Origin: Permianibacter aggregans
GTDB taxonomy: Bacteria; Pseudomonadota; Gammaproteobacteria; Enterobacterales; Permianibacteraceae
Reading direction: 5' to 3'
Length of the DNA stretch: 64,000 nucleotides
NCBI RefSeq assembly: GCF_009756665.1
Contig: NZ_CP037953.1
Span: 2,852,001 to 2,916,000, forward strand
Shown here: one piece after another, positions 25,492-61,642 of the stretch
Layout: every line of letters begins with the position of its first letter
Position numbering within the stretch: the first letter of the stretch is position 1
Translations under genes and position numbers: made by a program
The notes under the pieces: model-generated
Databases searched by the model: none
Told to the model about the DNA's origin: nothing
Seen by the model: only the letters and a program-made list of their open reading frames with translations

Positions 25492-25511
25492 TCTGCTGTA
25501 CCGAATCGTAG

Positions 25512-25540
25512 AAAACCCCGCTTCCGCGGGGTTTTTTATT
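25512..25540 (+). terminator. Rho-independent terminator after phasin
   Basis: Stem ACCCCGC / GCGGGGT with loop TTCC, flanked by A and T6 runs. Confidence 0.93.
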
Positions 25541-25752
25541 TAGAAGCCATGTCAAAAATAGTTTGGACGATGGCGAGGTGCGCGAATTAGGAGCGGAAAA
25601 ATTCGCCAGGAGCGAATTTTCGTGCCAACTCCGAAGGGGGAGGCGCAAGGATGCGCCGAACATCAACCGGAGTTTACAAGTAGTAAATGAGGATGCCGAG
25701 CACCGCATCCGCGCAGATCGCCGAGTTCCAGGCATTTTTGAAATGGCTTCTA
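25541..25752. mobile_element. MITE-like element, copy A, carrying a hairpin-module cargo
   Basis: Ends are inverted repeats: GAAGCCATGTCAAAAAT at 25543 and the complement of GAAGCCATTTCAAAAAT ending at 25750 (16 of 17 identical), both flanked by TA. Copy B at 49.3 kb has the same ends. About 119 extra internal bases hold hairpins AAAATTCG-CCAGGAG-CGAATTTT (25598-25620) and GGCGC-AAGGAT-GCGCC (25642-25657). It has no coding capacity. The right end supplies the TAG stop of the DUF2970 gene. Confidence 0.8.
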
Positions 25753-25995
25753 CTGTCCGGCTGAGGACAGCACTGAGCGCACGATCAGCACCAGCGTCAC
25801 GATAAACAAAATGACAAAGACGATGCCAATCGCGATGTAGTCGCCGGGCCGGCCATGCTGAAAATCTTTCTGCCGCTTTTCTTCCGACTGCACGCCGAAC
25901 GCGGCAGCCAGCACGCTTTGCACCACGCTCCAGAAGCCGGGGCGTTTTGGCGCTTGTTGTGGGGATTGTTCAGGGGACTCAGAAGGTTCGCGCAT
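25750..25995 (-). CDS. DUF2970 family membrane protein
   Basis: 81 residues. A Pro/Gln/Ser-rich N-terminus, then FWSVVQSVLAAAFGVQSEEKRQKDF and HGRPGDYIAIGIVFV, the DUF2970 pattern, ending in one transmembrane helix. Function of the family is unknown. Its stop codon TAG coincides with the end of MITE copy A, so the last residues may have been set by that insertion. Confidence 0.85.
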   Translation of the reverse strand: MREPSESPEQSPQQAPKRPGFWSVVQSVLAAAFGVQSEEKRQKDFQHGRPGDYIAIGIVFVILFIVTLVLIVRSVLSSAGQ

Positions 25996-26073
25996 CGTGT
26001 CTGCTTCCGATAAAAACCTAAAAAACGAAAAACCGGCACATTGGCCGGTTTCTCGCGACTGAAGACTGCTGGG

Positions 26074-26298
26074 TTATCGAATGAATAACTCCAGAAAATC
26101 AATGAAGTGCAGCGATGGCGCTTTGTGGCGGCCAAACAACCAGTCACCGTAACCGACGTTTTCTTTCTGTTCACACTCTGGCGGCGGTACCGCGCAGTCG
26201 GTTTGAGCGACGGTCACTGCATCCGCTGGCGGGATCGGCGCCGGGCCAACCAAGACCAGGGTACCCACGACAAAAGCGACCGCCAACAGCTTTTTCAT
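26074..26298 (-). CDS. Small exported protein (hypothetical)
   Basis: 74 residues from ATG at 26298. AGAGGAG lies 8 bases upstream; a GTG three codons earlier is too close to this site. Signal peptide MKKLLAVAFVVGTLVLVGPAP, a short Cys-containing part (CAVPPPEC) and a C-terminal GYGDWLFGRHKAPSLHFIDF. The two cysteines could form a disulfide. No family recognised. Confidence 0.6.
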   Translation of the reverse strand: MKKLLAVAFVVGTLVLVGPAPIPPADAVTVAQTDCAVPPPECEQKENVGYGDWLFGRHKAPSLHFIDFLELFIR

Positions 26299-26417
26299 TG
26301 TCGACACTCCTCTTGCTTACTCAGGTGGCCATTACCTGTCAGGGCTGACATTGTAGACCTATCGCTGGCGTTTCGATACCGGCAACCATCGTAAATATTG
26401 GCCATTTGGTCGCAACT

Positions 26418-27740
26418 TCAGCACAGACGCTCGCTGACGCGGACGATCGACAGCGCCATTTCCAGCGCTTGTTCACCGTTCAGGCGCGGGTCGACCAGGC
26501 TTTTGTAAGCCCGTTCCAAATCCTGCTCCTCCAGGCCGCTGGCGCCACCGAGGCATTCGGTGACCGGCTCAGCCGTCATCTCGAAATGAACACCGCCGAG
26601 CACACTATGGCAGTCATGGTGAATGGCGAATGAGCTTTCCAGCTCGCGCAGGATGTCATCGAAACGACGGGTTTTGATGCCATTGGTCGTGGTCCGGGTA
26701 TTGCCGTGCATCGGGTCGGCACACCAGAGCACCGGCATGCCGTCGGCGCGAATGGCTTGGATCGCCGCCGGTAGTAAGGACTCGATCTGATCGGCTCCGT
26801 AACGGTGGATCAGCGTCAGCCGGCCCGGAAGCCGCTCGGGATTTAGTGCCTGACACAGCCTGCGCAGCGTATCGAGCGGCAGTTTCGGTCCAACTTTCAG
26901 CGCTACCGGATTGCTGATGCCACGCATGTATTCGACATGGGCACCAGCAAGATCGGCTGTGCGCATGCCGATCCACGGCAGATGGGTCGACAAGTTATAC
27001 CAACGATGGTCGCGTCCTGGCCGGGTCAGCGCCGATTCGTAATGCAGGTGCAGTGCTTCATGACAGGTGAAAAACTCGGTGCGCTGGGCCGGTGCTGGCG
27101 CCACCGTTTGCATCAGGGCGATGGCACGACGAACATCGCTGACCACCTGCCGGTATTCGTCGGCGCGCGGTGAATCAGCAACGAAACTCAAATCCCAGTG
27201 CTCGGCTGCCGACAAATCGCCAAAACCGCTTTCGGTCAGGGCCCGGATGTAATTGAGTGTCAGCGAGGCTAGCCCATAGCCGGTCAGCAGGCGTTTCGGG
27301 TCCGGTGTGCGACTACCAGCATCAAACTCGGCACCGTTGATCAAATCGCCGCGATAGCTCGGCAGCACCTGCTCATCACGGCTTTCAAATTCATCGGAAC
27401 GCGGTTTGGCGTATTGGCCGGCAATGCGACCAACCCGGATGATCGGCTTTTGCAATCCGTGGACCAGCACCAAGCTCATTTTCAGCAGGATTTTCAGCTT
27501 GGCGGTGATGCTGTCGGTATTGCAGTCGGCAAACGATTCGGCGCAATCGCCACCTTGCAACAGAAAGCGTTTGCCGGCGGCAGCATCGGCCAGTTGTCGT
27601 TGCAGATTGTCGATTTCCGCTTCGGTGACCAGCGGTGGCAGGCGTTGCAATTCCTGCGTGGCTTTTTGCAAAGCCGGCAGATCCGGATACGGCGGAAACT
27701 GTTGCAACGGGCGCGTCTGCCAGGAATCAGGGCGCCACAT
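26418..27740 (-). CDS. Class II 3-deoxy-7-phosphoheptulonate synthase
   Basis: 440 residues from ATG at 27740. Plant-type (class II) DAHP synthase: QGGDCAESF, PSYRGDLING, WDLSFV, HEALHLHYE, WIGMRTADLAGAHVEY and WCADPMHGNT are family motifs; conserved Cys and His in these blocks bind the metal. It catalyses the first step of the shikimate pathway from PEP and erythrose 4-phosphate. Enterobacteria use class I enzymes; class II forms occur in Pseudomonas and Xanthomonas. It lies alone with no other aro genes nearby. Confidence 0.95.
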   Translation of the reverse strand: MWRPDSWQTRPLQQFPPYPDLPALQKATQELQRLPPLVTEAEIDNLQRQLADAAAGKRFLLQGGDCAESFADCNTDSITAKLKILLKMSLVLVHGLQKPIIRVGRIAGQYAKPRSDEFESRDEQVLPSYRGDLINGAEFDAGSRTPDPKRLLTGYGLASLTLNYIRALTESGFGDLSAAEHWDLSFVADSPRADEYRQVVSDVRRAIALMQTVAPAPAQRTEFFTCHEALHLHYESALTRPGRDHRWYNLSTHLPWIGMRTADLAGAHVEYMRGISNPVALKVGPKLPLDTLRRLCQALNPERLPGRLTLIHRYGADQIESLLPAAIQAIRADGMPVLWCADPMHGNTRTTTNGIKTRRFDDILRELESSFAIHHDCHSVLGGVHFEMTAEPVTECLGGASGLEEQDLERAYKSLVDPRLNGEQALEMALSIVRVSERLC

Positions 27741-27784
27741 GAGATTTATCACGTACGTCAATAATGACGCCGATCGTACACAAA

Positions 27785-30067
27785 TCAGGGCGCTGCTGCA
27801 TCCGCTGGAAACTGCAATTCGTGCGCCAGTGCTGGAGTTAAATCAAATAAGGTGCCGATACCGATGACCCGGCTGATTTCGGCGCGGAATTGATCGGCTT
27901 TGTATCGCGAGTTATTGAACACCGGTTTCAACAGCGCCTCGAATTCACTGCGCGGCAATGGATTGACCGGTGCAATCGCACAGGCAAATATTCGGGCCTT
28001 TTCCTGCAAGGCCTGTTGCAGCATCTGCCGCTCGTCGGCCGGCGATGCGGGTTCCAGCAGACTCCAGATCGCCGTGTGCTCGTCCTGCTTTTGCAGTTTC
28101 AACAAGGCGTGACGAACCTTGTCGACGGCGCCGACATTATTGCAATGCTCGCTGAGCAGGGTCTGCAATAACTCGCGTTGATTCAAACTGGTGATCGAGA
28201 TCTTGTCATCACCAAAAGGATAAAGCAGCGAACTGCCCGGATTGAATCCACAGGCAAAAAGATATGGGCGTTTTTCGCTGTCGCGCGACAACACAAACGG
28301 TACACCGGCAAGGCCAACGCCAACCAGCATCTCGGCGATGCGGGCATCGGCAATTTGCTGCTGCTCATGGGTACAGCGAGGCAGGCGGTGCCGATTGTTC
28401 TGAATGATGTACGTGAAAAAGCGCGCGGCGCCATGTTTGCTGACCCGGAAATCACGTTCCAGCGACAGCCGCTCTCCTTGGTGCTGACTGCGTACGACAC
28501 GATACGCCTGTTGCGCCAATTCTTCCGGCTCTTTGACTTTTTCCTGCAGCGCCGGGAAGCTGACTTTGACGATTTCCCGTGCTTCAAATCGGCCTGGTCT
28601 GTTCAACTGCAGCTGCAAACCATTGATGGAAAAATCCACCAGCTCGCCGCTGACCGATTCATTTTCACTGTCGACCTGCACTGCGGTCTTGTGCAAATAG
28701 CGCTCCTGCGCACGCTGGCCGCGCACACCCATGGCGAACAGCGGCGGTACCGGTGAGCGTGGCACTTCCCAGACTTTCAGCCACTCCGGTACCTGGGTCG
28801 GCAAGGCATCGAAGCGTTGTTCCGGGCGCAATGTGCTTTGATAAGGCACCAGCGCACAGCTATGGCTGATGCGACCGAGGCGCTGTTGCCAGTCGGCAAT
28901 ATGCGGCTTTAGCGATTCGGGCAACATGTCCAACGCTTCATCGATATCGGCTTGGTGCAGCGTTGGTTGTTTACGCCAGACCAATCCATAACAGGCACTT
29001 TCCTCGGACTCATTCATCAACCGATACCAGTCATCGCGCTGAGCTTTGGCTTGCAGCGCGTCGGCGGGCAGCGCATAAACGCGACCTTGCCAGCGCATCA
29101 CGTGCAGGCTTTGCCGGCTGGCGACAATGATCTGACTTTGTTTTTCCAGCATCGCCGCCGTCGTGATGCGCGCCAGTTGCCGGGCCGCCAAGGCGATCAG
29201 CGGTGTGGTCTCGCTCAATGCATATTCGACTGGCCCAGCACAGGCTTCCAGCTCAATGCGCTCGCCACTGGGCCGGAAAAACGCGTATAGCCCTTGCAGG
29301 CGCTGACCATACAAGCGGTCATAAGCACGCGCATAAGTGACCTGCAGCAGGTCATTCAGCTCGTGCTTGTAGCGGTTCGATTGGCTTTCGATAAAGTGCG
29401 GCAGGAAGTGATCAAACTCGCGTTCGCTGTCGCGCATCTGCCGCTTCAGGCGCAGCACTTTGCGATCCTGTTCGAGATCGGTGGCGACCACGGTATAGGC
29501 GATCTCGCCGAATGGTTCGCCATGCTTTTGTTGCAGTTCATCAAAGTGCAGCGACAGCGGCGTACCCGGTGGCAATTGAATATTGGCCGACGGCGACAGG
29601 CGTAATCCCAGCAATGACAAGTCCAGCGTTTTTCCGGCCAGGCGATTGCCGTTTTCCAATTCCATGGTCACCGACGAGACATAATTCATTCGTGATTCGG
29701 CCCGGCGCGGCCGGTAGCCAAAATCGATGCACATCACCTCATCATCGCGGGCATCGGCATGCACGGTGCGAGCGCCGCCCGATTCCGATTTCGCCATTTT
29801 GGTACTGGCCAGCAAGGCTTCGTACACGCCAAGCGTGTACTGGCCACGAAACCGCGCCAGCAACTGCTCGAATATCGCAATCGAGCGCTCATCCATCCAG
29901 TGGGTGCGGCCGCCATGTTGATACTCTTTACATTTGCCGGCGACCTGGCCGCGCAGATCAAGCGTGCGCATGCAGGGCTGTGACAGCCGTTGCTGCTCCA
30001 TGCGCTCCAGTTCCTGCTTGGTGCTGGGGGCGGCACGGCCGCGGTTGGGAGGGAGGTAATTCGCCAT
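27785..30067 (-). CDS. Large protein with two PilZ domains
   Basis: 760 residues. A first PilZ-like domain near 120-225 has RRAESR and later TLDLSLLGLRLS; a second near 470-570 has RYLHKTAV and ELVDFSINGLQLQL (DxSxxG motif in both). Long regions between and after lack known domains; the middle has helical and beta stretches and no membrane segments. PilZ domains bind cyclic di-GMP. The RxxxR of the second domain is not clear, so its binding is uncertain. Shares the upstream region with the PEP-CTERM-like gene. Probably cytoplasmic; role unknown. Confidence 0.8.
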   Translation of the reverse strand: MANYLPPNRGRAAPSTKQELERMEQQRLSQPCMRTLDLRGQVAGKCKEYQHGGRTHWMDERSIAIFEQLLARFRGQYTLGVYEALLASTKMAKSESGGARTVHADARDDEVMCIDFGYRPRRAESRMNYVSSVTMELENGNRLAGKTLDLSLLGLRLSPSANIQLPPGTPLSLHFDELQQKHGEPFGEIAYTVVATDLEQDRKVLRLKRQMRDSEREFDHFLPHFIESQSNRYKHELNDLLQVTYARAYDRLYGQRLQGLYAFFRPSGERIELEACAGPVEYALSETTPLIALAARQLARITTAAMLEKQSQIIVASRQSLHVMRWQGRVYALPADALQAKAQRDDWYRLMNESEESACYGLVWRKQPTLHQADIDEALDMLPESLKPHIADWQQRLGRISHSCALVPYQSTLRPEQRFDALPTQVPEWLKVWEVPRSPVPPLFAMGVRGQRAQERYLHKTAVQVDSENESVSGELVDFSINGLQLQLNRPGRFEAREIVKVSFPALQEKVKEPEELAQQAYRVVRSQHQGERLSLERDFRVSKHGAARFFTYIIQNNRHRLPRCTHEQQQIADARIAEMLVGVGLAGVPFVLSRDSEKRPYLFACGFNPGSSLLYPFGDDKISITSLNQRELLQTLLSEHCNNVGAVDKVRHALLKLQKQDEHTAIWSLLEPASPADERQMLQQALQEKARIFACAIAPVNPLPRSEFEALLKPVFNNSRYKADQFRAEISRVIGIGTLFDLTPALAHELQFPADAAAP

Positions 30068-30176
30068 AACATCGGTCCACGAATACGTTCATCAAATATA
30101 GACTGTGGTACAGAATTTGCCGCGAAGGGCTGGGTCTTGATTGTTGTTTACCATGCCAATCGAGGTCGCCTTCAGG

Positions 30177-30234
30177 TTTTCGGTAATCAACGACGTTTTC
30201 TTTATAACTTACCGAAAAATTGCTGATTTTCGGT
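30177..30234. promoter_or_regulatory. Cluster of TTTTCGGT/ACCGAAAA sites (possible activator-binding site)
   Basis: TTTTCGGTAA at 30177-30186, TTACCGAAAA at 30209-30218 and TTTTCGGT at 30227-30234 form two inverted pairs. They lie about 90-150 bases upstream of the sigma-54 promoter, the usual place for enhancer-binding proteins. The protein is unknown; PrsR-type regulators are candidates. Confidence 0.45.
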
Positions 30235-30325
30235 CTTTGGGACGTGTCAGGTAATTTGCCATTTACAACACTCACTTGGTTACCAATAAGTGCTAATCGA
30301 TTGATTTAAATTGTAAAAGTTGAAG

Positions 30326-30343
30326 TGGCACCGACCTTGCTTT
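30326..30343 (+). promoter_or_regulatory. Sigma-54 promoter of PEP-CTERM-like gene
   Basis: TGGCACCGACCTTGCTTT: GG and GC are 10 bases apart as required, and TGGCAC-N5-TTGCT matches the sigma-54 consensus. Transcription would begin near 30353. Confidence 0.8.
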
Positions 30344-30358
30344 ACTGCTGTGCACCAT

Positions 30359-30378
30359 GTAAGCGAGCTGTCGCTTAC
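30359..30378 (+). other. 5' leader hairpin before PEP-CTERM-like gene
   Basis: Perfect 8-bp stem GTAAGCGA / TCGCTTAC with tetraloop GCTG. It starts about 6 bases into the predicted sigma-54 transcript and ends 9 bases before the AAGGAGGAG ribosome site, so it could stabilise the mRNA or tune translation. Confidence 0.6.
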
Positions 30379-30401
30379 CAAACAGCAAGGAGGAGTGAAG
30401 A

Positions 30402-31265
30402 ATGAAATTATTGAAGTGGCAAGGCATGGCCGCCGTATTCGCGCTTGGACTGAGCGCGCTGCCAGCTCAAGCCATCGTAGTGACCTCAGAGACCAACGCC
30501 AATGCCTTGGCTGCCGCTCTGTTGGCCGGTGGTGGCGCCGGTATTGATTTGGGAAGTGTTGTGGTTTCGGTCAGCAATCATACCTCGGGAAGCGCCGTAT
30601 CCAGCGGTACCTACACCAACGCCAGCAATACCTATGGCATCGGTAACGGTATCGTGCTGTCCAGCGGTAACGTACTGAATTATGGTGACGGTCCAAATAC
30701 GGCTGGTGGCACCACCACGGCTTATGGCGTGGCGGCGACGGCAGCAGAAGAATTGTTGTTGGACCCCATCACTGGTGGTTCATTGAATCATAACGATGTC
30801 ACCAGCATTACCTTGACCTTTAACCTACTGCCGGGCTTCGATTCGGTATTCTTCAATATCGCTTTCGGTTCGGAAGAATGGCCAGAGTGGGCGGGTTCAT
30901 CATTCATTGATGCGTTCGGCCTGTTCGTCAACGGCACCAACGTTGCGTTCGCTAACGGTAATCCGATCAACATTGACCATCCAGACATGGTTGGTCAGGC
31001 CGGTACCGAGCTGGACGGCATGTTGGGCGGCAGCACTGGTGCGTTTGGCCAGTTCGTGCACACCTTCGGTACCTTCGTTGGTGATGGCGCCATGGGCGTG
31101 ACCGTTACGTTCATCATTGCCGATTCAGGTGATTCGTCACTGGACAGCACGGTCTACATCAGCCAGCTCGGTGGCTCGGCTCCGCCGCCTCCGGTGCCAG
31201 CTCCGGCTGCTGCACTGCTGATCGCTGGTGGTTTGCTGCTGCTTGGCCGTAAACGCCAACGTTAA
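30402..31265 (+). CDS. Exported choice-of-anchor L protein with PEP-CTERM-like sorting signal
   Basis: 287 residues: signal peptide (MKLLKWQGMAAVFALGLSAL, ending PAQA), then a Gly/Thr/Ser-rich beta domain of the choice-of-anchor L type (NTYGIGNGIVLSSGNV, SVFFNIAFGSEEWPEW, FVNGTNVAFANGNPINID). The C-terminus VPAPAAALLIAGGLLLLGRK has the tripartite sorting layout: VPxP, helix, basic end, as in PEP-CTERM/exosortase substrates. Likely processed and released or anchored at the surface. Preceded by a sigma-54 promoter and strong ribosome site, followed by a terminator. Confidence 0.85.
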   Translation: MKLLKWQGMAAVFALGLSALPAQAIVVTSETNANALAAALLAGGGAGIDLGSVVVSVSNHTSGSAVSSGTYTNASNTYGIGNGIVLSSGNVLNYGDGPNTAGGTTTAYGVAATAAEELLLDPITGGSLNHNDVTSITLTFNLLPGFDSVFFNIAFGSEEWPEWAGSSFIDAFGLFVNGTNVAFANGNPINIDHPDMVGQAGTELDGMLGGSTGAFGQFVHTFGTFVGDGAMGVTVTFIIADSGDSSLDSTVYISQLGGSAPPPPVPAPAAALLIAGGLLLLGRKRQR

Positions 31266-31295
31266 GCATCCCAGGCAGCGTTTCTGCTGCAGCTG

Positions 31296-31325
31296 AAAAC
31301 GGCGACCACTGGTCGCCGTTTTTTA
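31296..31325 (+). terminator. Rho-independent terminator after PEP-CTERM-like gene
   Basis: Stem AACGGCGACCA / TGGTCGCCGTT with a very short loop, followed by T6. Confidence 0.93.
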
Positions 31326-31401
31326 TTGTCGATAAGAACGGTTTTCCGACGAAATGCCAATGAGGTGTTCACTGCTTCGGGTGCGCATTCTGCGCCGGCT
31401 T

Positions 31402-31430
31402 TTGACCTAGGCTGGTTTTGCTTTTAGGCT
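31402..31430 (+). promoter_or_regulatory. Candidate promoter of radA
   Basis: TTGACC, 17-base spacer, TAGGCT, 32 bases before the radA ATG. The -35 is good and the -10 is weak. Confidence 0.3.
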
Positions 31431-31461
31431 CTGCTGCCTTTTATGGAGATTTGCCCAACTC

Positions 31462-32829
31462 ATGGCCAAGAATAAAACCGTTTACGCTTGCGCTGCCTGT
31501 GGCGCCATCAGTCCGAAATGGCAAGGGCAGTGTGCCGATTGTGGCCAGTGGAATACGCTCAGCGAACAGGTTGAAGTGAAAGCGCCGGCGCGCAGCGGCC
31601 GTTTTGCCGGATTCGCCGGAGCGGCGTCGACAGTCACCCGCTTGCCGGAAGTGCAAACCGGCAATATCCAGCGCTGGCCAACCGGTTCCGGCGAGCTGGA
31701 TCGAGTCTTGGGCGGTGGCCTGGTGCCGGGTTCGGTGGTGCTGATTGGCGGTGATCCGGGCATTGGTAAATCGACACTTTTGACGCAGACACTTTGCCTA
31801 TTGGCCGGGCAGGGGCCGGCACTGTATGTCACCGGCGAAGAAAGCCTGGAGCAGGTTTCGCTACGTGCCAAACGCTTGGGGCTCGGCGAGTCCAATTTGG
31901 CGCTGCTGGCTGAAACGCAAGTCGAGCGCATTGTTGCCGTCGCGGAACAGGAAAAACCGCAAGTGATGGTCGTCGACTCGGTGCAGACGCTTTACACCGA
32001 ACAACTGCAATCGGCGCCCGGTGGCGTTTCCCAGGTGCGGGAAAGTGCGGCCTTGCTGACCCGTTTTGCCAAGCAGACCGGTACCGCATTGTTTCTGGTC
32101 GGCCATGTCACCAAAGACGGCGCTTTGGCCGGCCCGCGGGTACTGGAGCATATGGTTGATGCCGTGCTCTATTTCGAAGGTGAAAGCGACGGCCGTTTCC
32201 GCTTGGTGCGAGCAGTGAAAAATCGTTTTGGCGCGGTCAACGAACTCGGCGTGTTTGCCATGACCGAAACCGGCCTGAAAGAGGTCAAGAATCCGTCGGC
32301 GATTTTTCTGACCCGCAACAGCCAACCGGTGCCCGGTTCGCTGGTCACGGCGACCTGGGAAGGTACCCGGCCGTTATTGGTCGAAGTGCAAGCGCTGGTC
32401 GATGAAAGTCGGGCCGGGCATCCGCGCCGGGTGGCGGTCGGTTTGGACAGCAACCGCTTGGCGATGTTGCTGGCAGTGTTGCACCGTCATGGCGGTGTAC
32501 AGTCCTACGATCAGGATGTGTTCCTGAACGTCGTTGGTGGTGTGCGAGTGTTGGAAACCAGTGCCGATCTGGCGCAGCTGCTGGCCGTGGTGTCGTCACT
32601 GCGCAACCGGCCTTTGCCTACCGACTTGATTGCCTTCGCGGAAGTCGGTTTGGCCGGAGAGTTGCGGCCGGTACCGAATGGCCAGGAGCGATTGAAAGAG
32701 GCCGCCAAACATGGATTCCGACGCGCCATCGTGCCGCTCGGCAATGCACCGAAACTGCCGCCGGAAGGTATGACTGTGCAGGCCGTGCGTTCCTTGCACG
32801 AAGCGTTGCTGGCGGCTTATCAGGAGTAA
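31462..32829 (+). CDS. radA: DNA repair protein RadA
   Basis: 455 residues. C4 zinc finger (C10, C13, C24, C27), RecA-like ATPase with Walker A GDPGIGKST (97-105), the RadA-specific KNRFG at 253-257, and a Lon-like C-terminal domain (DLIAFAEVGLAGELRPV). It drives branch migration in recombination repair. GGAG lies upstream of the ATG. Monocistronic. Confidence 0.97.
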   Translation: MAKNKTVYACAACGAISPKWQGQCADCGQWNTLSEQVEVKAPARSGRFAGFAGAASTVTRLPEVQTGNIQRWPTGSGELDRVLGGGLVPGSVVLIGGDPGIGKSTLLTQTLCLLAGQGPALYVTGEESLEQVSLRAKRLGLGESNLALLAETQVERIVAVAEQEKPQVMVVDSVQTLYTEQLQSAPGGVSQVRESAALLTRFAKQTGTALFLVGHVTKDGALAGPRVLEHMVDAVLYFEGESDGRFRLVRAVKNRFGAVNELGVFAMTETGLKEVKNPSAIFLTRNSQPVPGSLVTATWEGTRPLLVEVQALVDESRAGHPRRVAVGLDSNRLAMLLAVLHRHGGVQSYDQDVFLNVVGGVRVLETSADLAQLLAVVSSLRNRPLPTDLIAFAEVGLAGELRPVPNGQERLKEAAKHGFRRAIVPLGNAPKLPPEGMTVQAVRSLHEALLAAYQE

Positions 32830-32882
32830 TTGGCGATTATTTGACGGGAGTTGAACCGGAAGTAAGTGCCTGCTTCACGAGT

Positions 32883-33266
32883 TCATTCATCACTATGTCG
32901 TAGCGCCGGGAATTCCCGCTCGAGCGCGCTGGCATCGCCCAGATTCAATTCCACCAGACGGCGCAAATGGCTGATGCTGTCCAGATCGATGCTGTCGCAA
33001 AGCAGACCCATGACACCTTCGCGCTCATGTGCAACGCGCACCGTCATCCGAATGACGACATCGTCTTCGTCGCCAAGCGGAATTTCCAGCGTCAACGGTG
33101 TCACCAGACTGACATCGGCGTATTCGGCCGGAATCGCGACCAGCGCGCCCTGCAGCGAAACATCGCATACCTGGCAGGGAACTCGGCCATTGCTGTCGCA
33201 CAGGTAGGCTTGTGAGAAAAAATCAACGCGGGAAAAGCGCCGTCGATCGCTGTGTTGTTCGCTCAT
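32883..33266 (-). CDS. Single-domain PilZ protein
   Basis: 127 residues from ATG at 33266 with AAGGA upstream. The PilZ motifs are complete: RRRFSRVDF (RxxxR) near residue 8 and CDVSLQGALVAI (DxSxxG) near residue 37. It likely binds cyclic di-GMP. It is divergent from motAB, which suggests a YcgR-like or PlzA-like link to flagellar control, but it lacks the YcgR N-terminal domain. Confidence 0.85.
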   Translation of the reverse strand: MSEQHSDRRRFSRVDFFSQAYLCDSNGRVPCQVCDVSLQGALVAIPAEYADVSLVTPLTLEIPLGDEDDVVIRMTVRVAHEREGVMGLLCDSIDLDSISHLRRLVELNLGDASALEREFPALRHSDE

Positions 33267-33401
33267 GCTGGGAAATCCTTGCCATGGTTCCGGCAGTATA
33301 GTTCGCTCAGCCGCAAATTGTTTTCTGGCACGCCTTTGCAATCGCCAACGATGAACTATGCTTAAGCCGTTCACAAGAATCGTTCCGGGTATTTATCGCG
33401 C

Positions 33402-34253: not shown

Positions 34254-34262
34254 GGCGAGACG

Positions 34263-35243: not shown

Positions 35244-35246
35244 TTT

Positions 35247-36218: not shown

Positions 36219-36219
36219 A

Positions 36220-36567: not shown

Positions 36568-36628
36568 CTTCGCTTTCCTCCAGTGCTACACTAAAGGGCC
36601 ATTTTACGTGACGATGCAGGCAGGAGCT

Positions 36629-37174: not shown

Positions 37175-37183
37175 GGCCTCCGC

Positions 37184-39156: not shown

Positions 39157-39186
39157 TAAATCTGAAAGTGATTTGGCAGGTTAACG

Positions 39187-40491: not shown

Positions 40492-40555
40492 TTGACGGAC
40501 TCCTGTTCTTTTTACGTTCGAAATTTTCTGTATTCCAAACAGCCTTCAGCTTCAA

Positions 40556-40883
40556 AGAGTGCCGGTTCTCGGACCGGCAGCCGAGTTTCTTTTCTTTGCT
40601 CGTGCAAAGAAAAGAAACCAAAAGACAAATTTGTCAGGAGCAAATTTGGACGTCGAAGACGCCCGGAGGGTGAATGCCAGGATGGCATGAATCCACCACG
40701 CCCCGAAGCGCCAGTGAGGTTTCGCTGCTTCGACGAGGCCGCTCCGGCAACAAGCATTCTCCGGCTCGGGCCGCACTGACGCGGCATCCCTGCCTTGACA
40801 TTGCTACGCCAGCTATCCTTGCTGGCGTACCCGGCCTACGAATGCTCGTTGCCGGCTGGCGCATACGGGGGCCCCGTTTTTTC
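40556..40883. repeat. Structured intergenic repeat, long copy C
   Basis: Fills most of the 522-base amiB-mutL gap and has no coding capacity. It is a chain of hairpins: GCCGGT/ACCGGC (from 40561); a perfect 14-bp stem TTTCTTTTCTTTGC with loop TCGT (40586-40617); CAAATTTG around TCAGGAG (40626-40648); CGTC-GAA-GACG (40651-40661); ATGCC-AGGAT-GGCAT (40674-40688); and ACGCCAGC around TATCCTT (40806-40828), whose complement again gives loop AAGGATA. Outer arms at 40744-40759 and 40840-40855 pair at 15 of 16 positions. Related modules lie at 25.6 and 47.5 kb. Confidence 0.8.
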
Positions 40884-41013
40884 TTCTCTATTTCTGTGGC
40901 TTCGAAAAAAAGCACGAAGAGTATGCTTTTTTAGCGCCCAGAGCTTTTTGAATACGTTTCGCGGTTTTGTTAAACACCGGTAAACTACCCGCAAATTCCC
41001 CTTCGTTGATTCC

Positions 41014-42660
41014 ATGACTTCTCGCATCGAAATCCTGTCGCCTCGACTCGCTAACCAAATCGCCGCTGGCGAGGTGGTTGAACGGCCGGCGTCGGTGATC
41101 AAGGAGTTGTTGGAAAACGCGCTGGATGCCGGTGCGACACGCATTGATATCGATGTTGAACGCGGTGGTGTGCAGTTGTTGCGCATTACCGATAACGGTC
41201 ATGGCATTCACCCCGACGATCTGCCGCTGGCTTTGGCTCGGCATGCGACCAGTAAAATCAAAACGCTGGATGATTTGGCCGCGGTGATGTCACTCGGTTT
41301 TCGTGGCGAGGCCTTGGCCAGTATCGCTTCGGTTTCGCGGCTGACGCTGATTTCCTGTCAGCGTGATCAGGACAATGCCTGGCTGGCATTCGCCGAAGGT
41401 GCCGGCATGCAAGTCGAAGTGCGGCCGGCAGCACTGGATGTCGGCACTCGTGTCGAAGTGCGCGATTTATTTTTCAACACGCCGGCGAGACGCCGTTTTT
41501 TACGTAGCGAAAATACCGAGTTCGCCCATATCGATGAAACCGTGCGACGTGTTGCTCTGGCGCGGCCCGATGTCGCGGTACGACTGACGCACAACGGTAA
41601 AACGGTGCGCAATTTCCGTATCGCTGACGGCAAGGAAGGTTTGGCCGAGCGCGTTTCTGCCGTGCTTGGGCGCAGCTTTCTGGTGACGGCTGTTGAAGCG
41701 GAGCAGCAGATCGAACAGCAACGCATTTTTGGTTGGATAGGGCATCCAGAACAACATCGCGCCCAGGCCGATGGCCAGTATGTATTCGTCAATGGCCGCG
41801 CGATTCGCGATCGCGTCGTCAATCATGCGATTCGTAGCGCGTATGAGGAGTCGCTGCCGAAAGGACGGGCACCTTGTTGGGCGTTATTCATTGAAATGCC
41901 GGCCGAGCTGGTTGATGTCAACGTGCATCCAACCAAGCATGAAGTACGCTTTCGCCATGCGCGCTGGATGCATGACTGGATCACGCAAACGGTTCGGGAA
42001 AGTCTGCAACGACTGCCGGAAACGGTTGCCCAGCCAGTGAGCACCACGCCTGTTTCTGAACGCCCCATTTCACCACCCGCATTTTCTCGTCCCCGCTCGG
42101 CGCCGACAATTGCCGAATCGGCGGTGATAGCGCGTCCGCCAGCGCGCGAAGCGGTAAAAGAAACGATGGCGTTTTATCAAACGCTAAGTACCGAGTCTAC
42201 ACCGTCAAATGTAAAGCTGGTGCGGGTCGGCGAAACGTTGATGCTGAGTTTGGATACGCCACTGCAGCTTTGGCATTTGCCAACACTGCTGCAGGTATTT
42301 TTGCAGCAACAATGGTTGGAAGCGAAACCTGCACAGCAACCATTGTTGATGCCGATTTCTTTGCCATTGCTCAGCAATGCTGATGACGAAAAGCTGTGCT
42401 CGCTCGGCTTTACTATCGACAAGAAACTACTGAAAGCCGCACCGTCGGTACTGCGCGGTGCTAACTGGACGGTGTTGTGCCAATCGCTGATCGACACTAC
42501 TGAAGTGATCGATACTGTTGTCGAACATTTGCTGAATCAGCCTGCCAGTAACAATCTTGACTATTGGCAGGAAAAAATTGCCTGGGCACAGCGGCAGAGC
42601 GTTGAGCATTGCCGGCGTGAATTGAGCGCCGAAGATTGGCAGCAGCTATGGCCGACCTGA
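41014..42660 (+). CDS. mutL: DNA mismatch repair protein MutL
   Basis: 548 residues. GHKL ATPase N-terminus: LANQIAAGEVVERPASVIKE, catalytic Glu31 and Asn35 in KELLENALDAGA, DNGHGI, and LGFRGEALASI. The C-terminal dimerisation domain is short and no DQHA(x)2E endonuclease motif was seen, consistent with a dam/MutH-type system, and dam is present at 22.3 kb. It overlaps miaA by 13 bases. Confidence 0.97.
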   Translation: MTSRIEILSPRLANQIAAGEVVERPASVIKELLENALDAGATRIDIDVERGGVQLLRITDNGHGIHPDDLPLALARHATSKIKTLDDLAAVMSLGFRGEALASIASVSRLTLISCQRDQDNAWLAFAEGAGMQVEVRPAALDVGTRVEVRDLFFNTPARRRFLRSENTEFAHIDETVRRVALARPDVAVRLTHNGKTVRNFRIADGKEGLAERVSAVLGRSFLVTAVEAEQQIEQQRIFGWIGHPEQHRAQADGQYVFVNGRAIRDRVVNHAIRSAYEESLPKGRAPCWALFIEMPAELVDVNVHPTKHEVRFRHARWMHDWITQTVRESLQRLPETVAQPVSTTPVSERPISPPAFSRPRSAPTIAESAVIARPPAREAVKETMAFYQTLSTESTPSNVKLVRVGETLMLSLDTPLQLWHLPTLLQVFLQQQWLEAKPAQQPLLMPISLPLLSNADDEKLCSLGFTIDKKLLKAAPSVLRGANWTVLCQSLIDTTEVIDTVVEHLLNQPASNNLDYWQEKIAWAQRQSVEHCRRELSAEDWQQLWPT

Positions 42661-43583
42661 AGCCTACGGTTCTCTGCCTGATGGGACCGACCGCATCCGG
42701 CAAGACGGCGCTGGCGATGCGCTTGGCCGATACCCGGCCGTGTTCGCTGATCAGTGTCGATTCGGCGCTGATTTATCGCGGTATGGATATCGGCACCGGC
42801 AAACCGACCGCCGAGGAACTGGCCCAGCACCCACATCAACTGATTGATATCTGCGACCCAAGCGAAAGCTATTCCGCCGCGCGTTTTCGCGATGAAGCCT
42901 TGGCGGCCATTGAGCAAGCGGTAAACGCCGGCAAGCTGCCGGTGTTGGTCGGCGGCACGATGCTGTATTTCAAGGCGCTGATCGAAGGTATCGCCGATCT
43001 GCCCGATGCCGAGCCGGCGCTGCGGGTCCGTTTGGAACAGGAGCGTCAGCAACAGGGCTTACCGGCGTTGTATGCCCGCCTGCAACAGCTTGACCCAGCG
43101 GCCGCAGCACGCATCAGCGCCAACGACCCGCAGCGCATTCTGCGCGCGCTGGAGGTCATTGAGCTGACCGGCAAGCCCATGACGGAGCTCTGGGCACACC
43201 AGACACCGGCAACTCAGCCGTATCACTATGTGCAGGTGGCGCTGCTGCCGGACCGGGCCTGGCTACACCGTCGTATTGCGATGCGGTTGGATGTGATGCT
43301 GGCGGCCGGTTTTGTTGAGGAAGTGAAGGCCTTGAAAGCCCGGCCGGACCTACACGCCGAGCTGCCGAGCATTCGTTGTGTCGGCTATCGGCAAATCTGG
43401 GACTTTCTCGACGGCGCCTGCAATGAACAGGAAATGCGTGAGCGGGCCTTGGCGGCCACCCGGCAGCTGGCCAAGCGTCAGTACACCTGGTTGCGCAAAT
43501 GGCCATTGGATTTACTGCTGGACGAAAACAGTGAAAATCCGGTCGATCAGATCTTGAAAGCCATGGAACCAGCGCCCATTTAG
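42648..43583 (+). CDS. miaA: tRNA dimethylallyltransferase
   Basis: 311 residues from the ATG at 42648 inside the mutL end; a TTG four codons earlier is also open. P-loop MGPTASGKT, SVDSALIYRGMDIGTGKP, VGGTMLYFKAL and QLAKRQYTWLRKW are MiaA motifs. It adds the dimethylallyl group to A37 of tRNAs reading UNN codons. The block mutL-miaA-hfq-hflX is the classic gammaproteobacterial order. Confidence 0.96.
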   Translation: MADLKPTVLCLMGPTASGKTALAMRLADTRPCSLISVDSALIYRGMDIGTGKPTAEELAQHPHQLIDICDPSESYSAARFRDEALAAIEQAVNAGKLPVLVGGTMLYFKALIEGIADLPDAEPALRVRLEQERQQQGLPALYARLQQLDPAAAARISANDPQRILRALEVIELTGKPMTELWAHQTPATQPYHYVQVALLPDRAWLHRRIAMRLDVMLAAGFVEEVKALKARPDLHAELPSIRCVGYRQIWDFLDGACNEQEMRERALAATRQLAKRQYTWLRKWPLDLLLDENSENPVDQILKAMEPAPI

Positions 43584-43787
43584 CGGTCATACGTTCTGAG
43601 CAGGCTGTGCTCCATCGCGTCATGCGCAAAAGTCACGGCGATGTCGCTGTTGCGTTTCCGGCTTTACGCTACAATTACCAACGGTCGTCCCGGTTTTTCC
43701 AGTATCGGCCGGCCATCACCAGTCTGAGCTGCCTCTGACCTTGATTCGGCAGGGCTACTAATAACAGGAATATAAGGAGAATAGATC

Positions 43788-44063
43788 ATGTCGAAAGGGC
43801 AATCGTTACAAGACCCTTTTTTGAATGCGCTGCGTCGTGAACGCGTTCCGGTGTCGATTTACCTGGTCAATGGCATCAAGTTGCAAGGCCAGATTGAATC
43901 ATTTGATCAATTTGTTGTGCTTTTGAAAAACACCGTCAGCCAAATGGTTTACAAGCACGCGATTTCCACGGTCGTGCCTGCCCGCAATGTGCGCTTGCCG
44001 CATCAAGGTGCAGGTGGCGACGAACCCACTGAAGATGAAGGTGTACAGCCAGGTAACCTCTGA
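43788..44063 (+). CDS. hfq: RNA chaperone Hfq
   Basis: 91 residues. Sm1 motif ([36 protein letters not shown]) and Sm2 motif ([10 protein letters not shown]), followed by a short acidic tail. The hexamer pairs sRNAs with mRNAs. AAGGAG lies just upstream. A 204-base gap before it can hold its own promoter; a TACAAT sequence at 43670-43675 is a possible -10. Confidence 0.98.
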
Positions 44064-44074
44064 GCGTACGCCAG

Positions 44075-44100
44075 CCAATGCCGCCCTGCGGCGGCATTGG
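44075..44100 (+). other. Strong hairpin between hfq and hflX
   Basis: Perfect 11-bp stem CCAATGCCGCC / GGCGGCATTGG with loop CTGC, 11 bases after the hfq stop. No T run follows, so it may be an mRNA end protector or attenuator rather than a full terminator. Confidence 0.6.
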
Positions 44101-44134
44101 TGCATCTGCGTATTGAGTGTAATGAATACCCTAC

Positions 44135-45469
44135 ATGTTTGACCGTCACGCCGGCGGCGAGGCGGCTATCCTCGTTCATCTCGATTTTTCCTCTGGCGAT
44201 CAAGCCGAAGACGTTGCGGAGCTGCAGGAGCTGGTGCGCTCGGCCGGCCTGACCGTGCTGCAACTCGTCACCGGCAGTCGCAAGCAGCCAGATCCCCGCT
44301 ATTTCCTCGGCGAAGGCAAGGCCGAAGAGCTGCGTGCTGCCGTGCAGGCGCACAAAGCGGAAGTGGCGATCATCAATCATCAAATGTCACCGGCTCAGGA
44401 ACGCAACCTGGAGCGGTTGATTCAGTGCCGGGTTGTCGATCGGGTCGGTTTGATTCTCGATATCTTCGCTCAGCGCGCCCAAACCCATGAAGGCAAGCTG
44501 CAGGTCGAGCTGGCGCAGCTTAAGCACCTGTCGACGCGCCTGGTACGCGGCTGGACCCACTTGGACCGTCAGCGCGGTGGTGGTGTCGGCATGCGCGGTC
44601 CTGGCGAAACGCAGTTGGAAACCGACCGTCGTTTGGTCATGGCGAAAATCGACCAAATCGAGAAACGTTTGTTGAAAGTGGCTGAAACGCGCGAGCAAAG
44701 CCGCCGTTCCCGTCGTCGTAACGAAGTGAAAACCGTGTCGCTGGTCGGTTACACCAACGCCGGCAAGTCAACGCTGTTCAATGCGCTGACCGAGAGCGGC
44801 GTTTACGCGGCGGATCAGTTGTTCGCGACGCTGGATCCAACCCTGCGCCGATTGCCGATCGAGCAAACCCAGGTGCTGGCGGCCGACACGGTCGGTTTTA
44901 TCCGCCACTTGCCGCACGATCTGGTGCACGCTTTCAAAGCGACGCTGACCGAAACCCGCGAAGCCGATTTGTTATTGCATGTCGTCGATGCCGCCGATCC
45001 ATTGCGCGATGACAAGATTGCTTCCGTAAAAGCGGTACTGCAGGAAATTGGCGCCGAAGACGTGCCGAGCATTACCGTGTTCAACAAAATTGATTGCTTG
45101 CCGGACATGGCGCCGCGTATTGAGTGCGATGAAAATGGCATGCCGGTGCGTGCCTTTGTTTCGGCAGTGACTGGTGCCGGGTTGTCCGAGCTGCTCGACG
45201 CCATCGAAGAGCGAGTGGTCAACACCCGGGTCGAACTGACCTTGATCTTGCCGCCTGAAGCCGCAAAATTACGGGCCAAGCTCTTCGCGCTGCAGGCCGT
45301 GCAGCACGAAAGCATCGACGAAGACGGTGCTTTTCATCTTTTCTTACAGATTGATGCGGTGGAGTGGGCGCGCTTACGCCATGATCCGCAAGCGCGGCCC
45401 TACTTGCCGGAAATTTCTCAACACACAGAGGCAGACGATTGGACTGCCGCAACACAACTGGAGCATTGA
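44135..45469 (+). CDS. hflX: Ribosome-rescue GTPase HflX
   Basis: 444 residues. N-terminal HflX domain (PDPRYFLGEGKAEEL), a helical arm with GGVGMRGPGETQLETDRR, then the GTPase domain with VGYTNAGKSTLFNAL (G1), ADTVGFIRHLP (G3) and FNKIDCL (G4). It splits stalled ribosomes under heat stress. Its end overlaps the start region of hflK closely: the stop is 2 bases before the hflK ATG. Confidence 0.97.
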   Translation: MFDRHAGGEAAILVHLDFSSGDQAEDVAELQELVRSAGLTVLQLVTGSRKQPDPRYFLGEGKAEELRAAVQAHKAEVAIINHQMSPAQERNLERLIQCRVVDRVGLILDIFAQRAQTHEGKLQVELAQLKHLSTRLVRGWTHLDRQRGGGVGMRGPGETQLETDRRLVMAKIDQIEKRLLKVAETREQSRRSRRRNEVKTVSLVGYTNAGKSTLFNALTESGVYAADQLFATLDPTLRRLPIEQTQVLAADTVGFIRHLPHDLVHAFKATLTETREADLLLHVVDAADPLRDDKIASVKAVLQEIGAEDVPSITVFNKIDCLPDMAPRIECDENGMPVRAFVSAVTGAGLSELLDAIEERVVNTRVELTLILPPEAAKLRAKLFALQAVQHESIDEDGAFHLFLQIDAVEWARLRHDPQARPYLPEISQHTEADDWTAATQLEH

Positions 45470-45471
45470 CC

Positions 45472-46557
45472 ATGCCTTGGAACGAGCCGGGTAACGGCAA
45501 CAATCAAGACCCATGGGGCCAGCGGCGCAAGCCGCAAGGTGGCCCGCCGGATCTCGACGATTTTCTGAAAGATCTCGGTAAAAAACTGGGCGGCATTTTC
45601 GGTGGTGGCAAAGGCCCATCGAGTAGTGGTGGTGGCGGCAGCAGCGGCAAAGCCAACTCGGTGTTGGGTTTTGTCATTCTCGCCGTCGTCGTGTTTGGTT
45701 ACGGTCTCGCCGGTATCTATCAGGTCGACGAAAAAGAGCGTGCGATTGTGTTGCGTTTCGGTGAATACAATCGCATTGAAGGCTCCGGTTTGAACTGGGC
45801 GCCGCCAATCATCGATCAAGTCAACATCGTCAACACCACGTCAGTTCAACAAGAAATTGTGCGCGGCCGGATGCTGACCAAGGATGAATTCCTGGTCGAT
45901 GTCTCGACCTCGGTGCAATACCGTATCGCCGATCCGCAAGCGTACTTGTTCAACGTTGTCGATCCGGATTTCACTTTGCAGCAGGCCACCGAAGCGGCTT
46001 TGCGTTCGGTCATTGGTCAGTCGCAACTCGATGACATTCTGACGGCCGGTAAATCGGTCATTCAAAGCCAGACCCGCGAATTGCTGCGCGAAATTCTCGA
46101 GCCGTACAAAACCGGTCTGGAGATCGCTGACGTCAATTTCCAGGAAGCGGATCCACCGCAGGAAGTACGCGCCGCGTTCGATGACGCCATCAAGGCGCGT
46201 GAAGACAAGGGCCGTATGGTGCAGGAAGCGCAAGCTTACCGCGAGAAAGAATTGCCACTGGCGCAAGCAAACGCCCAACGTATTCTGCAAGAGGCCGAAG
46301 CGTATAAAGCTCAGGTGACCGCGCAGGCACGAGGTGAAGTACAGCGCTTTGAAAAATTGCTGCCGCAGTATCTCGCCGCGCCAGAAGTGACGCGCAACCG
46401 TCTGTACATTGAAACGATGGAAGAAGTGCTGTCAAAAGTCAGCAAAGTCGTTGTCGACGATAAAGGCGGCAACAACATGCTGTACCTGCCGCTCGACAAA
46501 ATGGGCCAGCAGCGTAGTAATGCCGGTGCCGCTGGCGCCGCGATGGAAGGGAGATAA
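45472..46557 (+). CDS. hflK: Membrane protease modulator HflK
   Basis: 361 residues from ATG at 45472. Gly/Pro-rich cytoplasmic N-terminus (PWNEPGNGNNQDPWGQRR), one transmembrane helix (VLGFVILAVVVFGYGLAGIY), then a SPFH/band 7 domain and a long helical region. With HflC it forms a large periplasmic cage around FtsH. HflC follows 3 bases later. Confidence 0.97.
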   Translation: MPWNEPGNGNNQDPWGQRRKPQGGPPDLDDFLKDLGKKLGGIFGGGKGPSSSGGGGSSGKANSVLGFVILAVVVFGYGLAGIYQVDEKERAIVLRFGEYNRIEGSGLNWAPPIIDQVNIVNTTSVQQEIVRGRMLTKDEFLVDVSTSVQYRIADPQAYLFNVVDPDFTLQQATEAALRSVIGQSQLDDILTAGKSVIQSQTRELLREILEPYKTGLEIADVNFQEADPPQEVRAAFDDAIKAREDKGRMVQEAQAYREKELPLAQANAQRILQEAEAYKAQVTAQARGEVQRFEKLLPQYLAAPEVTRNRLYIETMEEVLSKVSKVVVDDKGGNNMLYLPLDKMGQQRSNAGAAGAAMEGR

Positions 46558-46560
46558 GTT

Positions 46561-47448
46561 ATGCAGTCCAAAACCTTCTCGATTTTGTTGATCGCAATTC
46601 TGGGTGCATTTATTGCCGGTAGCTCGCTGTTCATCGTTGACGCCCGCGAACGGGCGCTGGTGCTGCGCTTCGGTGAAGTGCAGCGTAACGATCAGGGTAT
46701 GCCGATCGTTTATGAACCAGGCTTGCACGTCAAAATGCCGTTTGCCGACACCGTCAAGCGCATTGACTCCCGCGTCCAAAACCTCGATGGCGATGCCGAT
46801 CGCGTTGTCACGTTGGAGAAAAAAGACGTTATCGTTGATTCCTTCGTCAAATGGAAAGTCGATGACTTCTCTCACTTCTACCTATCGACCAACGGTGACG
46901 TGCGTCGCGCTTCGGAATTGCTTGAACGCAAAGTCGATGCCGCGATACGCGAAGAATTTGGTAAGCGCAACATCAAGGACCTGGTCTCGGAAGCGCGGTT
47001 GGAAGCGATGTTCAAACTGCGTGACACGATTCAGGTTGACGCCGAGGATTTGGGCGTCGAAGTGCTCGACATTCGCATCAAACAAATCAATCTGCCGAAT
47101 GAAGTGTCCGAGTCGGTCTACGCCAACATGCGCGCTGAGCGGGTAAAAACGGCGACAGAACTGCGTTCGACCGGTCAAGGTGAAGCCAACATCATCAAGG
47201 CGAAAACCGATGCTGAAGTAAAAATTCTTTTGGCCCAGGCCGATCAGGAATCGCGCCGCATTCGCGGTGAAGGCGATGCCACCGCCGCGAAAATCTACGC
47301 CGATACCTACAAGCAGAACGCCGAGTTCTACGCTTTCTTGCGTTCGCTTGATGCCTACAAGGCTTCATTCAATTCCGACAAAGACGTCATGGTCGTCGCG
47401 CCGGATAGCGATTTCTTCAAATACATGAAGAAAAAAGACGGACGCTGA
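46561..47448 (+). CDS. hflC: Membrane protease modulator HflC
   Basis: 295 residues. N-terminal transmembrane helix (ILLIAILGAFIAGSSLFIV), SPFH domain (RERALVLRFGEVQRNDQG), and a coiled C-terminal region with RRIRGEGDATAAKIYADTY. It is the HflK partner in the FtsH complex. Followed by a terminator. Confidence 0.97.
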   Translation: MQSKTFSILLIAILGAFIAGSSLFIVDARERALVLRFGEVQRNDQGMPIVYEPGLHVKMPFADTVKRIDSRVQNLDGDADRVVTLEKKDVIVDSFVKWKVDDFSHFYLSTNGDVRRASELLERKVDAAIREEFGKRNIKDLVSEARLEAMFKLRDTIQVDAEDLGVEVLDIRIKQINLPNEVSESVYANMRAERVKTATELRSTGQGEANIIKAKTDAEVKILLAQADQESRRIRGEGDATAAKIYADTYKQNAEFYAFLRSLDAYKASFNSDKDVMVVAPDSDFFKYMKKKDGR

Positions 47449-47460
47449 TTTTTTGCGTCA

Positions 47461-47490
47461 AAAAATGGGCCGTTACCGGCCCATTTTTTT
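47461..47490 (+). terminator. Rho-independent terminator after hflC
   Basis: Stem AATGGGCCG / CGGCCCATT around TTAC, with A and T7 flanks. Confidence 0.93.
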
Positions 47491-47507
47491 CGTCGATATA
47501 ATTTGTT

Positions 47508-47635
47508 TCCCCTCGCCCCTTGTGGGACAAATGATTCGGGAAATCATTTGGACAACGAAGTTGCCCGAAGGGGGAGCACCAAGGGTGGTGCTCCTCAATG
47601 GGGGTAGGGGAGAAGGGGCTACCCTCCAGCAACCA
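47508..47635. repeat. Structured intergenic repeat, copy D
   Basis: A C-rich frame (CCCCTCGCCCCTTGTGGGA, from about 47510) and a G-rich end (GGGGGTAGGGGAG) enclose hairpins CAAATGATT-CGGGA-AATCATTTG (47528-47550), CAAC-GAA-GTTG, CCC-GAA-GGG and GAGCACC-AAGGGT-GGTGCTC. The first, second and last match hairpins of copy C in place and loop but with different, compensated stems. It lies between the hflC terminator and yjeT. Confidence 0.75.
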
Positions 47636-61640: not shown

Positions 61641-61642
61641 AA

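Follow-up and report, generated by a model that had tools for sequence, protein, structure and literature searches.

Dispersed hairpin modules akin to tRNA-linked repeats in the genomes of Permianibacter aggregans and other Gammaproteobacteria

The window analyzed here, a 64,000-nt stretch of the Permianibacter aggregans genome (contig NZ_CP037953.1, positions 2,852,001 to 2,916,000), contains three intergenic sites, at 25.6, 40.6, and 47.5 kb, each carrying one module of ∼65 to 80 nt with up to four hairpins (HP1 to HP4) on the forward strand (Table 1). The surrounding genes code for a phasin, an AMIN-amidase-LysM protein, MutL (so labeled from the mismatch-repair domains of that protein), and a Band_7 protein. 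The three modules are lodged, respectively, in a miniature inverted-repeat transposable element (MITE) of the IS5 type, a AAAGAAAAGAAACC-type composite repeat, and a C-rich palindrome (about 47507 to 47619). The consensus module consists of GAC, HP1 with a CNGGA-type loop, GAAC or GGAC, HP2, HP3 (CCC-GNA-GGG), YGA, HP4 (CANGGANG or CAGGANG), and GA(GT)(A)ATC. HP2 is missing from the 25.6-kb copy; GGA is found in HP1 of all three window copies and in HP4 of two of them. All hairpins that the original prediction, made from the sequence of this window alone, had quoted for a shared chain at these three sites are present.

Table 1. Modules, their hairpins, and adjacent features in the window (R1, covariance model described in the text)
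Feature	Positions in window	Strand	Remarks
Terminator-like hairpin and T run	25510-25540	+	3' of the phasin gene (PF09361), just ahead of copy 1
IS5-type MITE carrying copy 1	25542-25751	+	Ends AGAAGCCAT.TCAAAAAT; 210 bp = empty form of 144 bp + 66
Module copy 1	25596-25662	+	R1 match, 40.9 bits, E 2.4e-8; HP1, HP3-like hairpin, HP4
HP1 of copy 1	25598-25620	+	Loop CCAGGAG
HP3-like hairpin of copy 1	25629-25640	+	CTCC-GAAG-GGGG
HP4 of copy 1	25642-25657	+	GGCGC-AAGGAT-GCGCC (CANGGANG form)
Module copy 2	40624-40693	+	R1 match, 91.9 bits, E 5.7e-23; R1 seed sequence; all four hairpins
HP1 of copy 2	40626-40648	+	Loop TCAGGAG
HP2 of copy 2	40651-40661	+	CGTC-GAA-GACG
HP3 of copy 2	40662-40670	+	CCC-GGA-GGG
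HP4 of copy 2	40674-40688	+	ATGCC-AGGAT-GGCAT
Terminator-like hairpin and T run	47460-47490	+	3' of the Band_7 gene (PF01145), ahead of copy 3
Module copy 3	47526-47596	+	R1 match, 85 bits, E 5.3e-21; R1 seed sequence; all four hairpins
HP1 of copy 3	47528-47550	+	Loop TCGGGAA
HP2 of copy 3	47553-47563	+	CAAC-GAA-GTTG
HP3 of copy 3	47564-47572	+	CCC-GAA-GGG
HP4 of copy 3	47574-47593	+	GAGCACC-AAGGGT-GGTGCTC

Three DNA queries led to several groups of copies in the 4.27-Mb P. aggregans genome, of which 11 full dispersed copies, including two of the three from the window, were aligned with a structure set by hand to give the covariance model R1. When R1 was run without filters on the tyrT and rrnB stretches of Escherichia coli K-12 and on loci of the Rfam family RtT (RF00391, cut-off 45), its best match there (51.5 bits, E 1.6e-13) fell between terminators T1 and T2 of rrnB (L126, 1838 to 1912), which is the place of RrB, one of the tRNA-linked repeats (TLRs), reported to be expressed by read-through and processed (PMC8144298). 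The RtT cut-off is itself passed by at least one P. aggregans copy, a tRNA-Tyr-linked one that R1 matches too (genome positions 1263952 to 1264107, 45.5 bits), and by a copy in another genome (L106 in G009, 45.2 bits). Because R1 finds RrB and one tRNA-Tyr-linked copy passes the RtT model, there is a strong case that the window modules are cores of the TLR/RtT/RrB kind. The original prediction had been aware of no described function; the module in fact belongs with RtT and with RrB, which is reported to bind CsrA with a dissociation constant of about 100 nM, the gel shift being lost when three GGA motifs are changed, and to bind Hfq as well (PMC8144298). The RrB locus matches no Rfam family at cut-off, with RtT reaching 17 bits, and RF00391 gives no match to the 25.6- and 47.5-kb copies even at E ≤ 10. 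The stretches around the window copies (L061, L067, and L093) contain no tRNA and no match to 5S or 23S rRNA; given this and the three host frames named above, these copies are TLR-like cores rather than strict TLRs.

In the P. aggregans genome, R1 detects 45 places at E ≤ 1, with E < 0.001 for 44, and, in 42 stretches taken from it, 51 matches at E ≤ 0.01, one of only 17.4 bits, with three pairs overlapping head to head. Only the sites at 25.6, 40.6, and 47.5 kb survive from the longer chain originally proposed: the GAA-loop hairpin at 61.6 kb reads GGTGC-TTC-GCACC on the + strand, with GAA on the - strand of a C-rich palindrome, the AAGGATA loop at 40806 also lies on the - strand, and both are absent from the R1 list for the genome. 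The palindrome at 61590 to 61645, which contains no listed module, has CCCTCGCCCCTTGTGGG (on the other strand) in common with the frame of the 47.5-kb module. Modules are nested or overlap head to head in L094, L096, and L098; among these loci, an inverted HP1-like hairpin opens one HP4 loop, and in L098 HP1 is flipped in place. At L076 (1501 to 1738), two identical modules lie in a 167-bp tandem duplication, with tRNA-Met on the other strand.

Among 40 genomes (P. aggregans and 39 relatives), R1 has matches in at least 9, i.e., in at least 8 of the 39 relatives. Named genomes, scanned with a degenerate pattern, yielded at least 118 stretches; of the 80 loci examined, R1 matches 77, mostly from Gammaproteobacteria, which bears out the suggestion of related repeats elsewhere in this class. 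These loci come from Serratia, Yersinia, Pectobacterium, Salmonella, Methylomonas, Marinobacter, Pseudoalteromonas, Shewanella, Rheinheimera, Microbulbifer, Halomonas, Luteimonas, Methylophaga, Idiomarina, and other genera; a few pattern-scan loci, metagenome-assembled genomes among them, lie beyond Gammaproteobacteria. A pattern that left the loops free hit 37 of 369 genomes from the class, P. aggregans included, versus one match for the reversed control pattern. One 5.1-Mb genome (G285) has 41 pattern matches, and those listed are near-identical, as if from a recent burst. In the nearest relative available (G001), gene order around all three sites is collinear, and the gaps matching 40.6 and 47.5 kb are free of modules; the counterpart of 25.6 kb, a 3.3-kb gap read in part, lies in a 40-kb stretch with no R1 match among the matches listed. 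The csrA gene is present in P. aggregans and, counting this genome, in 38 of the 40, which makes it uninformative with respect to the presence of the module.

The original prediction that stems change with compensation and loops are kept is supported by the alignments. In the 11 seed copies, 98.2% of the cells pair and both sides are changed in 29 cells, versus 8.2 in shuffles; in 101 distinct copies from the 77 named loci, 97.1% of the cells pair, both-side changes occur in 19 of 20 pairs, and both-side cells number 442, compared with 123.5 in shuffles and 31 to 69 in slid versions. Alignments A4 and A5 (the latter drawn from the 80 named loci out of at least 118 stretches) were fitted to the R1 structure and therefore lean toward it. 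The check for stems varying without pairing, the outcome that would have spoken against selection on structure, did not refute the prediction. The predicted covariation stands above the shuffled and slid controls, which only approach the phylogenetic background. Chance hairpins, considered as an explanation, are ruled out by covariation above shuffles and by GGA loops above background.

The loops are kept across genera, while in 102 copies the stem finder distinguishes 64 different 5' arms for HP1 and as many for HP4. In a sample requiring neither loop (51 copies from 30 loci of the unconstrained pattern scan and 20 further stretches, at least two likely chance matches, L292 and L293, included), GGA is found in 41 of 46 HP1 loops, in 38 of 50 HP4 loops, and in both loops of 33 of the 51 copies, whereas background hairpins elsewhere on the same stretches have it in 31 of 491. 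Among 98 matches from P. aggregans, its relatives, and E. coli, GGA occurs in 88 HP1 loops and in 73 HP4 loops as cut by the stem finder, the latter number being lower than the 86 copies whose last 40 nt contain GGA at any place (CANGGANG in 54, CAGGANG in 13, another GGA in 19, and no GGA in 12). The corresponding counts of 83 and 85 in 102 named-locus copies are biased because the scan pattern demanded GGA downstream. A count of isolated ANGGAN hairpins lying outside modules is set aside, since modules had been excluded on one strand only. Of the motifs near the 3' end, CANGGANG and CAGGANG represent the classic forms known from Rsm and CsrB. The inner hairpins differ in kind: HP2 has a GNA or GNNA loop in 27 of 51 copies in one set and in 47 of 82 in another, and HP3 loops are GNA in 45 of 98, with 18 unscored.

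The module is dispersed within host repeats, as exact inserts, and the evidence for this is strong. In P. aggregans, 69 ends of the IS5-type MITE form 29 pairs: 14 spaced at 143 to 145 bp contain no listed module (5 of these 14 empty elements were read), 10 spaced at 207 bp contain one module each, two spaced at 210 to 211 bp, a length shared by the element around copy 1 (genome coordinates by end pattern, 2877542 to 2877751), contain one module at another place and in another orientation, and one spaced at 270 bp contains two, with single cases at 91 and 905 bp. The 144-, 207-, and 270-bp forms thus have 0, 1, and 2 modules, and 207 − 144 = 63 = 270 − 207; this tally used a hand-typed module list in which the 270-bp form is represented by a single module, and the R1 matches show both. 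The 905-bp element (L330, genome positions 683885 to 684789), which has the ends of the MITE and pieces of an IS4/5-type transposase in two frames (DUF4096 and DDE_Tnp_1), probably gave rise to the MITE. The window also contains a remnant of this MITE, 91 bp long and with no listed module, at 49316 to 49406. A plasmid search with a typed composite query gave no match. In four loci of Enterobacterales (two from Yersinia, one each from Serratia and Rahnella), the module sits at ...|ATCCC inside a repeat resembling the enterobacterial repetitive intergenic consensus (ERIC), and in a fifth, from Salmonella diarizonae, on the opposite side of ERIC; the assignment to ERIC is based on two primer sites with 3 to 5 mismatches each (primer sequences from PMC4016151). 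A candidate target, GA^ATCC, is seen in tRNA and ERIC cases. Taken together, the exact inserts in MITE forms and ERIC-like repeats agree with the earlier view that modules are copied as units into different frames. An ERIC insert of ∼70 bp is reportedly mentioned in older papers; the literature searches made and the available parts of PMC2229807 and PMC2759123 do not show it.

A minority of copies are linked to tRNA genes. A same-strand tRNA precedes, by at most 400 nt, 6 of the 51 P. aggregans matches, the remaining 45 not being behind a tRNA, and 17 of 102 named-locus matches. Among 17 tRNA-linked copies hand-picked from the tRNA calls, 9 are directly followed by an exact repeat of 16 to 19 nt of the tRNA 3' end (8 are not); in 11, the 56- to 100-nt spacer between tRNA and module contains a terminator-like site, as in rrnB T1-RrB. 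The P. aggregans loci L078 and L075 have such tRNA 3'-end repeats of 18 nt each. In L021/L075 and L206, a sequence that otherwise resembles a tRNA for Glu or Lys carries the module within its T-loop. At L075 (about 1180 to 1640), the tRNA-Glu region comprises a split tRNA-Glu-like copy with the module in its T-loop, a tRNA-Glu that is intact, a terminator-like site, and another module with a repeated tRNA 3' end. A tRNA-Arg precedes modules in different genera: it has the CCG anticodon in L097, L163, and L195, the tRNA 3' end in L113 is the same as in L097, and L163 and L195 have an 18-nt 3'-end repeat. At L228 (4152 to 4432), a 5S gene is followed, after about 100 nt, by a module on the opposite strand.

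The reading we favor, and consider probable with some reservation, is that these are dispersed TLR-type four-hairpin copies that, when transcribed, could serve as a weak CsrA decoy or a local CsrA handle. A copy would be transcribed by read-through past a terminator or within an untranslated region; HP1 and HP4 would then present their GGA loops to CsrA, as published for RrB, and the bound copy might act in either of these two ways, while dispersed copies would spread by riding in other repeats (the IS5-type MITE here and ERIC in Enterobacterales). CsrA sites are GGA motifs in the loops of stem-loops (PMC8144298), and by analogy transcribed copies with GGA loops are likely to contact CsrA. A bolder version, which is possible but distinctly tentative, sees the modules as transposable CsrA handles: mobile units found across the class would take CsrA-binding hairpins to new intergenic sites by way of MITEs, ERICs, and tRNA T-loops, their tens of copies might form a distributed CsrA sponge that rewires CsrA targets, and the rrnB T1-T2 spacer, present in many vectors, would be a domesticated member.

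Several observations weigh against a role of dispersed copies in CsrA binding. The HP4 loop of the 47.5-kb copy has GGG, not GGA; the window has zero family matches in Rfam at gathering score (RF00391 and CL00106 included); and the classic E. coli tyrT repeat, whose HP4 loop has no GGA, scores only 7.6 to 9.6 bits with R1. RrB only modestly affects CsrA phenotypes, and the predictor score for CsrA binding is below 0.01 for the 19 TLRs from tRNA operons of E. coli, which speaks against CsrA binding by all TLRs (PMC8144298). In P. aggregans, the upstream gene is on the same strand in 21 of 40 intergenic copies and on the opposite strand in 19 (genes from a home-made caller, tRNA genes excluded; 4 of 44 copies lie inside called frames), and a terminator lies upstream of 10 of 38 dispersed copies versus 7 of 38 in the mirror test, so that neither the orientation nor the terminator test reveals a general transcription signal for dispersed copies. 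RNA folding z-scores are no better on the + than on the - strand; in the single-sequence energy minimum, HP1 of the 40.6- and 47.5-kb copies does not take its drawn form, in contrast to E. coli RrB, in which all four hairpins are present. Stem G-U outnumbers A-C by 50 to 8 with the stem finder, a count biased because the finder credited G-U, and by 31 to 10 on the model-fitted alignment; with stems delimited without G-U credit the ratio is 7 to 3 (P = 0.34), and the G-U excess was therefore dropped as support. In view of the unbiased orientation, the weak terminator signal, and the lack of a G-U excess or a folding strand preference, the grounds for an RNA function are regarded as good in the case of RrB; for tRNA-linked copies whose loops have GGA such a function is plausible, and for dispersed copies it is inferred.

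Some of these null results also fit two other explanations. The dispersed copies could be neutral hitchhikers of MITEs and ERICs, descended from an RNA element born beside tRNA or rRNA genes, their stems kept paired by youth or by quasi-palindrome correction; copies sharing one host frame are indeed similar, orientation is unbiased, and G001 has none at matching places (among the matches listed, the 25.6-kb gap having been read in part). This is a serious contender, if a rather improbable one: the loops are kept across genera despite the many different arms of HP1 and HP4 and are the same in unrelated frames, and constant loops combined with diverse arms make neutral stem correction insufficient. 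It is unlikely that the module is instead a mobile palindrome acting at the DNA level, in which the hairpins work as single-stranded DNA during insertion or replication, the moving machinery reads the loops, and dispersed RNA has no role. Insertion is exact and repeated, inverted and nested copies exist, there is neither a strand bias relative to genes nor a significant G-U excess, and the loops of HP2 and HP3 are often of the GNA type, which is unusually stable in DNA; the loops of HP1 and HP4, however, bear GGA rather than GNA, and the search for a moving enzyme covered the transposase of the MITE. RrB, moreover, is expressed, folded, and CsrA-bound as RNA (PMC8144298). That the modules serve as intrinsic terminators or stabilizers of mRNA 3' ends is very improbable: two window copies lie directly behind terminator-like sites, but no T run follows the window modules, and only 2 of 38 dispersed P. 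aggregans copies have a terminator-like site downstream on the same strand.

The favored reading, a TLR-type module with a conditional CsrA role, joins things described separately: tRNA-linked repeats, CsrA-binding rrn small RNAs, and inserts in ERIC and MITE repeats. It points to a covariation-supported RNA family in many Gammaproteobacteria, of which Rfam release 15 reaches only the tRNA-linked edge, and makes its function testable, natural copies with varied stems and the same loops being available in csrA-bearing genomes, with empty host repeats as controls. The relatives of the module among TLR/RtT and the CsrA-binding rrn small RNAs were known already; new here is that 45 of 51 P. aggregans matches are not behind a tRNA and that many copies are exact inserts in other repeats. 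The literature searched, which included few subscription papers, contains no description of dispersed TLRs or of dispersed CsrA-binding repeats.

Among known elements, REP elements consist of a tetranucleotide beside one palindrome and are linked to the RAYT transposase. By description, the modules are also akin to cyanobacterial SDRs, which are small inserting hairpin elements, and we know of no GGA-loop signature in these or in Rickettsia palindromic elements. The latter were likewise compared by description, as small elements with hairpins whose insertion sites include genes, RNAs, and other repeats (PMC2229807). With ERIC/RU-1 and other MITEs (same source), the likeness is that of small mobile intergenic repeats, ERIC-like ones being hosts of the module, but the module is an insert, not a MITE, and no terminal inverted repeats of its own were seen on it. 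With the CsrB/RsmY/RsmZ RNAs (CL00106; comparison on 20 of 22 chosen loci, without L078 and L070), the modules share GGA-loop hairpins, and one from G001 (L108) overlaps a subthreshold RsmY match (36.1 of 57 bits); unlike those RNAs, they stay below family cut-offs, have few hairpins per copy, and are dispersed. TwoAYGGAY gives a match in L101 (38.6 of 43 bits) that falls upstream of the module rather than on it. The TLRs, described in 1978 with no known function (PMC8144298), and RtT share with both RtT-passing modules the 18-nt repeat of the tRNA 3' end that follows the module; they differ in that the HP4 loop of the classic tyrT copies lacks GGA and the window copies fall below the RF00391 score. 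RrA, RrB, and RrF, encoded by three E. coli genes, are TLRs situated between the two terminators of rrnA, rrnB, and rrnD, and BLAST is reported to find them in at least 31 species of Enterobacteriales (PMC8144298). They are tied to rRNA operons, whereas 45 of the 51 P. aggregans matches have no tRNA ahead, queries with E. coli 5S and part of 23S found no such gene near the modules in the 42 stretches, and by these queries no copy lies between two terminators behind 5S. In the order of the four hairpins, in the near-identical linkers, and in the GGA of the HP1 and HP4 loops, RrA, RrB, and RrF and the module agree.

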